NCBI GenBank assembly: GCA_903870275.1
Contig: CAIQCK010000014.1
Span: 1-64,000 of the forward strand
DNA length: 64,000 nucleotides
Direction: 5' to 3'
DNA from: an uncultured bacterium
GTDB lineage: Bacteria; Verrucomicrobiota; Verrucomicrobiia; CAIQCK01
Made by a program: the position numbers and the translations under genes. Under the pieces are notes generated by a model, which ran no database searches, was not told where the DNA came from, and saw nothing but the letters and a program-made list of their open reading frames with translations. Position 1 is the first letter of the stretch; every line of letters starts with the position of its first letter. Shown here piece by piece: positions 8,535-10,023 of this stretch.

Positions 8535-9383
8535 TCAGCGCAGATTCTTGGGCAGGGGAAAATATCCCACTTCTTGCACGACTGCCTGGCCGGCATCGCT
8601 CAAACACCAGGTAATGTAGTCGGCCACGGCGTCCACGTCCTTTTCGCTTTTCACGTAACTGAAAAGATAGCGCGCCAGCGGATAGTGGTCGGCATGGACG
8701 TTGGCTTCCGTCGGCGCGAACGCCCCGCTGGATGGCGTCCTGCTGATGGCGAGTGGCTTCACGCCGTGATCATACGCAATGCCTCCGAAGCCGATGGCGT
8801 TGGAATCGCCAGCAACCGCTTGAATGACCGCCGCCGTGCCGGACATCGCCTTGGTGGCGGGAGCGAAATCCTGGCGGTTGAGAACGTGCGCCTTGAAGAA
8901 CTCATACGTGCCGGACGAGTTTTCGCGGCCGTAGAGCGAGATCGGCGCATCCTGGCCTCCGACCTCCTTCCAGTTGCTGATCTTGCCGGTATAAATCTTC
9001 CCGATCTGCGACAGGCTGAGTTTCTCGATGGGATTCGCCTTGTTAACGAAGATGGCAACGGCATCCATGCACATCTTGTATTGGCGGGGTCGCTTGCCGA
9101 ATCGTTCGATGAAGTCTGCGATCTGGGCGGCGCTCATCGGCCACGAGGAGTTGCAAATGTCCACGGTGCCTTTGAGCAACGCTGCAATACCCGTGGCCGA
9201 ACCGCCGCCAGTCACCATGATCTTCGCGTCGGGGTGCGCCCTCGCATAAATTTCCGCCCATCGTTGACCGAGAATGAGCATGGTATCCGAGCCCTTGACG
9301 GCGATTTCCGCCGCATGCGACGGCTTAGCCCAAACGCTTGAAATTACAAGCATTATGGCAAAAATAGATAAACGCATCCTCAT
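8535..9383 (-). CDS. pstS: Phosphate ABC transporter substrate-binding protein PstS
   Basis: 282 residues from ATG 9383. This start gives a standard signal peptide (MRMRLSIFAIMLVISSVW...SHA) and lies just downstream of the Pho-box-like array. Phosphate-binding signatures are visible: VKGSDTM near the mature N-terminus, GGGSATGIAAL, and RENSSGTYEFF. The protein is periplasmic and delivers phosphate to PstCAB. No pstC, pstA, pstB or phoU gene lies in the window, so this is a solitary copy. No ribosome binding site precedes the start. If transcription begins downstream of the last 11-bp repeat, the message would have an almost absent leader. Confidence 0.92.
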   Translation of the reverse strand: MRMRLSIFAIMLVISSVWAKPSHAAEIAVKGSDTMLILGQRWAEIYARAHPDAKIMVTGGGSATGIAALLKGTVDICNSSWPMSAAQIADFIERFGKRPRQYKMCMDAVAIFVNKANPIEKLSLSQIGKIYTGKISNWKEVGGQDAPISLYGRENSSGTYEFFKAHVLNRQDFAPATKAMSGTAAVIQAVAGDSNAIGFGGIAYDHGVKPLAISRTPSSGAFAPTEANVHADHYPLARYLFSYVKSEKDVDAVADYITWCLSDAGQAVVQEVGYFPLPKNLR

Positions 9384-9409
9384 AACTACGACCAATTTGT
9401 GCGACTCAT

Positions 9410-9447
9410 GTGACGGAATTGCAACGCTTATGTTACGGTTGTGTGAC
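9410..9447 (-). promoter_or_regulatory. Pho-box-like array of four 11-bp direct repeats
   Basis: On the pstS strand, GTCAC, GTAAC, GTTGC and GTCAC recur at exactly 11-base steps (plus-strand positions 9443, 9432, 9421 and 9410). PhoB-type response regulators bind 11-bp direct repeats of a TGTCA/GTCAC core with 6-base AT-rich linkers, so this fits a PhoB-like operator. It ends 26 bases before the pstS start and also lies next to the divergent promoter at 9456-9484. Confidence 0.7.
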
Positions 9448-9525: not shown

Positions 9526-10023
9526 ATGAACGACTTTAAATTCAAGGTGGCGTGCATCTGCGGAATGATGACTCTGGCCGGCGCCGGCTGGGGAGCGTCC
9601 GTGGACATTTTGAGTCCGGACAAGGCGCAAACCTACGCAGCCAGCCGGGTCTCAAACACGCGGCTCAAATGGAACGACCGGAATCGGATGCTCTACGCGG
9701 ACATCACCTTCGATCCGCAGATGTATGCCGGCGACGGCGATTCCAGCAGGAAAGAGTATTTCCTGTTCGGGATTCCGGGTGTGACCTTCGACCCGCAGAC
9801 GAACACGTTTTACGCCAACGATAACGAAGGCCAGCCCGTGGCCGTCGCCATCAAGAAGCCGGGGATGTTCGGGGGAAGCATCCTTCCCGCGCCCGGCAGT
9901 TGCATCTACGTCTATAAGAACCACGGCGAGGTGCAAGTCGTCCTCAAGGCCAGCACCGTCAACAACGCGGTTCTAAAACATCATTGGGTCGAAAAAGACG
10001 GCGGCTACGCGGACAACCGCTGA
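9526..10023 (+). CDS. Secreted hypothetical protein (165 aa)
   Basis: No family recognised. The start at 9526 is chosen over 9499 because AAGG lies five bases upstream. A signal peptide spans residues 1 to about 24 (FKVACICGMMTLAGAGWGA). The mature part is beta-rich, with aromatic and aspartate-rich segments (LYADITFDPQMYAGDGDSS, EYFLFGIPGVTFDP), and no cysteines. It is divergent from pstS and shares its regulatory region, hinting at a role in the phosphate-limitation response. That link is positional only. Confidence 0.65.
   Translation: MNDFKFKVACICGMMTLAGAGWGASVDILSPDKAQTYAASRVSNTRLKWNDRNRMLYADITFDPQMYAGDGDSSRKEYFLFGIPGVTFDPQTNTFYANDNEGQPVAVAIKKPGMFGGSILPAPGSCIYVYKNHGEVQVVLKASTVNNAVLKHHWVEKDGGYADNR

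Follow-up and report, generated by a model that had tools for sequence, protein, structure and literature searches.

The array at positions 9410 to 9447, read on the minus strand toward pstS, is very probably the PhoB operator (Pho box) of a solitary pstS gene in the window, by which we mean the whole 64,000-nucleotide stretch of contig CAIQCK010000014.1 from an uncultured bacterium of the Verrucomicrobiota. The anatomy of the sequence, its conservation, its rank in genome-wide searches and the presence of a PhoB with most of the matching contact residues all support this reading, whereas the replacement of Val197 by threonine in that PhoB, a third unit that is off-sequence, a weak −10 box and a similar array on an efflux operon (contig C104) count against it.

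Architecture of the array and the solitary pstS gene

The preliminary description placed four GTNAC half-sites at 9410, 9421, 9432 and 9443, and the four starts and their exact 11-bp steps stand, as does the sequence at three of the four, the exception being 9421, which is GCAAC. On the plus strand the 5-mers are, in order, GTGAC (9410), GCAAC (9421), GTTAC (9432) and GTGAC (9443), and in the sense of pstS the array reads GTCAC ACAACC GTAAC ATAAGC GTTGC AATTCC GTCAC. GTNAC by itself is a palindromic pattern; the proposed orientation toward pstS holds for the form GT[AC]AC (GTMAC) on the pstS strand, which recurs at other pst genes.

Unit 1, GTCAC (9443..9447, minus strand), is the most distant from pstS and, like unit 2, GTAAC (9432..9436, minus strand), is conserved across 88 aligned arrays from the class. 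Unit 3, GTTGC on the minus strand and GCAAC on the plus strand (9421..9425), is in phase yet degenerate, as it is class-wide; its score is at background level (p 0.28, 454,500 positions) and by sequence it is no Pho unit. Unit 4, GTCAC (9410..9414, minus strand; p 7e-4 against the 454,500 positions), lies at the −35 position and is separated by 10 nt (9400-9409) from a proposed −10 box, CAAATT (9394..9399, minus strand), that carries the conserved A (alignment offset 49) and T (offset 53) of YANNNT. The box is weak, with a 3/6 match to TATAAT, and is absent from the output of a generic sigma-70 scan; its score is equalled at 54 of the 454,500 positions. An earlier −10 candidate, CACAAA, located 8 nt past unit 4, was dropped for the 10-nt position after the 88 arrays had been aligned.

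The gene downstream (8535..9383, minus strand, with its start at 9383 or 9377) encodes a protein of 282 aa with a signal-peptide-like N-terminus that matches PF12849 and TIGR02136, the latter with 222.3 bits, above the cut-off of 206.6, and its nearest solved structures are phosphate-binding proteins. It had been described as solitary, and indeed pstC, pstA, pstB and phoU are all absent from the 64 kb, while a complete pst-phoBR locus is found on contig C121, where pit and the gene for what we take to be a DUF47-like protein lie to one side and are followed by phoB and phoR, genes for a receiver protein and a Porin_5 porin, and then pstS, pstC, pstA, pstB and phoU. In the window, pstS is flanked by a divergent gene for a secreted protein on one side and on the other by a gene judged to be alpha-amylase-like from its sequence. 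Among seven genomes of the family, only that of the window contains a second pstS, the product of which is 58-60% identical to those of the operon pstS genes, and in the PstS tree it is placed within the family's clade on a branch of 1.21 (median 0.3), as if it were fast-evolving or changed in role. Solitary pstS genes also occur elsewhere in the Verrucomicrobiota, at L092, L147, L148 and L157, where a stretch of at least 5.6 kb downstream gave no match to pstC or pstB, so the solitary state is not confined to this genome. In the same tree, L104, listed as Proteobacteria, and L111, listed as Akkermansia muciniphila, fall together with further Verrucomicrobiota MAGs, namely L119 and L132 (listed as Pedosphaera parvula), and the labels in this grouping may be wrong.

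Similar arrays at other phosphate promoters

The sites had been called PhoB-type, with the proposal that similar arrays be sought in front of other phosphate genes. For this comparison the best 80 of 280 named PstS loci were taken, of which 69 are labelled Verrucomicrobiota or members of it and the 11 others were excluded; the spacing count used the 67 loci with sufficient upstream sequence, L121 and L161 being dropped. On the coding strand upstream of pstS, GTMAC pairs spaced by 11 or 22 bp were found in 33/67 loci, and on the other strand in 0/67, with a shuffle mean of 0.12. Pairs at a spacing of 11 number 33 in these 67 upstream regions and each other spacing gives at most 4. Outside L087-L091, five loci from the window's family or near it, the count is 29/62, and across all 69 loci the pst strand carries 88 GTMAC pairs and the opposite strand 8.

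Alignment of the 88 arrays from the 69 loci on units 1 and 2 revealed that unit 4 is kept (at least four of five letters) in 50/88, out-of-phase offsets between 14 and 59 giving 0 to 10, that unit 3 is a weak G-[CA]-C, and that the −10 box has A at offset 49 in 63/88 and T at offset 53 in 61/88. The layout of the class is thus one of conserved units 1, 2 and 4, a degenerate unit 3, a gap of 10 nt and a YANNNT −10 box, all of which the window array has, and since unit 3 is degenerate in the class arrays, the misfit at 9421 is the normal look of this promoter type. GTMAC arrays also stand directly before phoB in 4/4 genomes examined and before the porin that opens the pst run in 5/5, including an incomplete one in the window's genome. 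Strict GTMAC pairs precede the operon pstS in 4/5 genomes; that of the window's genome has no strict pair and reads GAAAC-GCAAC-GTAAC.

A weight matrix built on 80 arrays outside L087-L091 placed the window array at the top of 228 kb of its genome's sequence (39.9 vs 36.4 for phoB), these 228 kb being chosen places, many of them picked for holding GTMAC pairs. Units 1 and 2 of the window are matched equally by 1 of 454,500 positions, and the non-anchor part (offsets 16-53, comprising unit 4 and the −10 box) at only 4. Profile R2, built from 43 of the 50 full-layout arrays with none from L087-L091, ranked the window array first across the 7.13-Mb genome with 29.1 bits (E 7e-6) among 150 scored of 716 first-look candidates, followed in the same set by phoB (25.8 bits), porin-pst (24.2 bits), an array between RND and MGDG-synthase genes on C104 (16.6 bits), a receiver gene in the pst cluster (15.0 bits), ppx-ppk (14.3 bits) and then C62, C59 and C74 at 13-14 bits. 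In G001, G002, G003 and G006 the top R2 match is the porin-pst promoter. Profile R1, which was trained on nine phoB and porin arrays with the window excluded, finds the window weakly (13.6 bits, E 0.41), in fourth place overall and second among non-training places, with 150 candidates scored; a site on C73 is also among the R1 matches. Similar arrays are therefore present at phosphate genes of this genome (phoB, porin-pst, ppx-ppk), of its relatives (phoB and pst promoters) and of the class (pstS in the 33 loci), in support of the PhoB-type assignment, which their absence had been proposed to refute.

At L222:2971-2986 a GTMAC pair is located 31 bp before the ppx of a ppx-ppk1-HD/CHAD run, and likewise in G001; in G002 and G003 the pairs at ppx are on the opposite strand only, so that ppx-ppk holds as a Pho target for two of the four genomes in which the start of ppx can be read. 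The genome's only perfect four-unit GTMAC array, G000:C104:1856-1893 (L005), heads an RND efflux operon (HlyD_D23, RraA-like, RND, OEP) and not a classical phosphate gene; an MGDG-synthase-like glycosyltransferase is encoded divergently to it, and the array could connect phosphate starvation with the substitution of glycolipids for phospholipids. Pho-type arrays were also observed before receiver-only response regulator genes at G000:C121:104999-105050, G006:C321:583-639 and G000:C62:4592-4642, and C62 has two arrays on opposite strands, 46 bp apart.

The divergent secreted protein

The divergent gene (9526..10023, plus strand) encodes a probably secreted protein of 165 aa with a signal-peptide-like start and no assigned family, and alignment with relatives agrees with the start at 9526 that had been proposed. 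No Pfam or NCBIfam match was obtained for the protein; PF06251 was considered for the family and not used, as 3/6 members touch it at a best E of 0.036 (Pfam E up to 1). The predicted fold, of mean pLDDT 59, consists mostly of strands, and its comparison with the PDB gave no match better than E 0.12. The protein is absent from the named genome collection searched, and the family occurs in 24/384 genomes of the class.

Neighbourhoods were compared in 23 of these 24 genomes (G229 was left out), with protein comparison alone counting in five stretches where gene calling was poor. The family adjoins pst or ppk genes, or a cluster of them, in 5/23 genomes, whereas 18/23 have none beside it. Its members are head-to-head with the solitary pstS in the window's genome (G000), with porin-pst in G040, where an array lies between them, and with ppk1 in G042 and G264, which belong to the same genus; in G002 the member follows the ppx-ppk1-HD/CHAD run on the same strand. 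The link to phosphate is recurrent and not general, because it is seen in these five genomes and the other copies are found beside gltX-like, RND or unrelated genes.

These arrangements allow a tentative addition to the Pho-box reading, in which the array is a shared operator from which PhoB would activate pstS and also activate or shut off the divergent gene. In its favour, G000, G040 and G042/G264 have a family member head-to-head with a Pho-box promoter, and in G002 one follows the polyphosphate genes, but the array points away from the divergent gene in 4/4 head-to-head cases and 18 of the 23 genomes lack an adjoining phosphate gene. When 21 upstream regions of family copies were scored against the maximum of 300 random segments (5.6), four exceeded it (39.9, 35.2, 10.0 and 8.8; the G040 array had itself served to train the matrix), all pointing away from the divergent gene, and the other 17 have no array above this maximum. 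A second array, pointing toward the divergent gene, was not found in the window's intergenic region, the best array there pointing away from it. The preliminary description raised the possibility of a new phosphate-starvation protein, for which the evidence is only suggestive: the pst and ppk neighbours speak for it, the direction of the array and the missing second array against it.

It is possible, though we consider it doubtful, that the divergent protein founds a Verrucomicrobiota family whose members, periplasmic or on the cell surface, would be linked to phosphate or polyphosphate and co-regulated from shared Pho-box intergenic regions, their genes either following ppx-ppk1-HD/CHAD or standing head-to-head with ppk1, porin-pst or pstS. 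The divergent secreted family is the part worth following, and it is the Pho-box model that points to it. Three tandem paralogues of the protein are encoded at G000:C35:9942-12009 (L078) beside a two-component pair, and they also adjoin a paralogue of the C104 RND cluster.

The regulator and comparison with known systems

The pst-linked PhoB on C121 (L006:5338-6024) shares 45% identity with its E. coli counterpart, and at the recognition positions it keeps T194, R201, R203, T217 and R219, with V197 replaced by T; in E. coli, according to PMC3264566, the bases are contacted by T194, V197, R201 and R219. In a comparison of six full-length OmpR-type regulators, the C121 protein alone keeps T194, R201 and R219 together. 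Its TIGR02154 score of 263.6 is below the cut-off of 296.2, as are those of 10 of the 12 control genomes matching TIGR02154. The OmpR family as a whole recognises direct repeats with a spacing of about 10-11 bp. Since at least six full-length members are encoded in the genome, and the genes behind the C104 array form an RND efflux operon, the window array might be the direct-repeat operator of another member, such as that on C77 or C35, with pstS answering another signal. We regard this as very unlikely, as the same array is found at phoB, pst and ppx-ppk and class-wide at pstS, and none of the other five regulators compared retains all three of T194, R201 and R219.

A GTNAC-N6-GTNAC pair is unremarkable in the window (0.43 expected, and at least one in 38/100 shuffles), and the lone GTMAC pair was rejected as a genome-wide marker; the reversed control gives 35 sites and the pair itself 23, so pairs are not enriched, and a pair by itself proves nothing. 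Phased GTNAC at three of the four positions occurred in 3/300 simulated windows of the same dinucleotide make-up, and four phased GTNRC are present at three places only in the 7.13-Mb genome (the window array, C104 and a GC-rich stretch on C16), while the reversed-pattern control gave no four phased sites there. That three short motifs were aligned by chance is barely credible, for although GTNAC pairs are common and C62, C59 and C74 also reach 13-14 bits in the R2 search, so few simulated windows hold a three-of-four array, and the real one also has unit 4 with a −10 box, placement before pstS and the top genome-wide rank (150 of 716 first-look candidates scored).

With the array read as a Pho box, phosphorylated PhoB from the C121 phoBR-pst locus would bind it head-to-tail under phosphate starvation, strongly at units 1 and 2 and also at units 3 and 4, of which unit 3 would be the weak and unit 4 the strong site. 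Unit 4 would stand in for the −35 element, and since it occupies the −35 place, 10 nt before the −10 box, PhoB would be expected to recruit sigma-70 RNA polymerase. From the position of the −10 box, transcription would start near 9387 on the minus strand, about 4 nt ahead of the ATG, which would make the pstS message nearly leaderless. The product, judging from its family, would be an extra periplasmic phosphate-binding protein that presumably feeds the PstCAB encoded on C121. The layout GTMAC-N6-GTMAC-N6-x-N6-GTMAC, 10 nt, YANNNT gives a testable Pho-box model for a largely uncultured phylum, and allows phosphate-starvation genes to be listed from draft genomes.

No description of a Pho box of Verrucomicrobiota was found in the literature searched, with subscription papers outside its scope; a marine survey describes plcP clusters with predicted Pho boxes and counts Verrucomicrobia among the organisms that carry plcP (PMC4796936). 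As described in the literature, a Pho box is made up of at least two direct repeat units of 11 nt (PMC4415409), the E. coli consensus is CTGTCAT-A(AT)A(TA)-CTGT(CA)A(CT) (PMC3465305) and PhoB sites in E. coli overlap the −35 site (PMC3348028). The window array has four 5-mers in exact 11-bp steps, overlaps the −35 position at a distance of 10 nt from CAAATT, and contains the GT(C/A)AC core of the half-site TGT(C/A)A(C/T) in units 1, 2 and 4, whereas GTTGC in unit 3 departs from it; the base preceding the G is C rather than T in all four units.

The array resembles the Pho box of E. coli phoA in its 11-bp direct repeats of TGT(C/A)A(C/T) and its gene-directed orientation, and also in a last unit, GTCAC, followed by 10 nt and the −10 box (GTCAC-10-TATAGT), but phoA has two units in place of four phased ones with a degenerate third, and the PhoB of the window's genome has V197 replaced by T. 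The window PstS keeps the GSDT, TGGGS and GRENSSGT stretches of the TIGR02136 family, although it is on a long branch, at most 60% identical to the others, and has no adjoining pstCAB. The same-genus porin-pst promoters share the four-unit layout 1-2-x-4, with good units 1, 2 and 4 and a degenerate unit 3, and the Verrucomicrobiota phoB promoters share the four-unit layout with weaker units 3 and 4. Unlike both, the window array has as its target a single pstS apart from pstCAB. The Pho box is a well-known kind of element, and the present one stands before a lineage-specific extra pstS.
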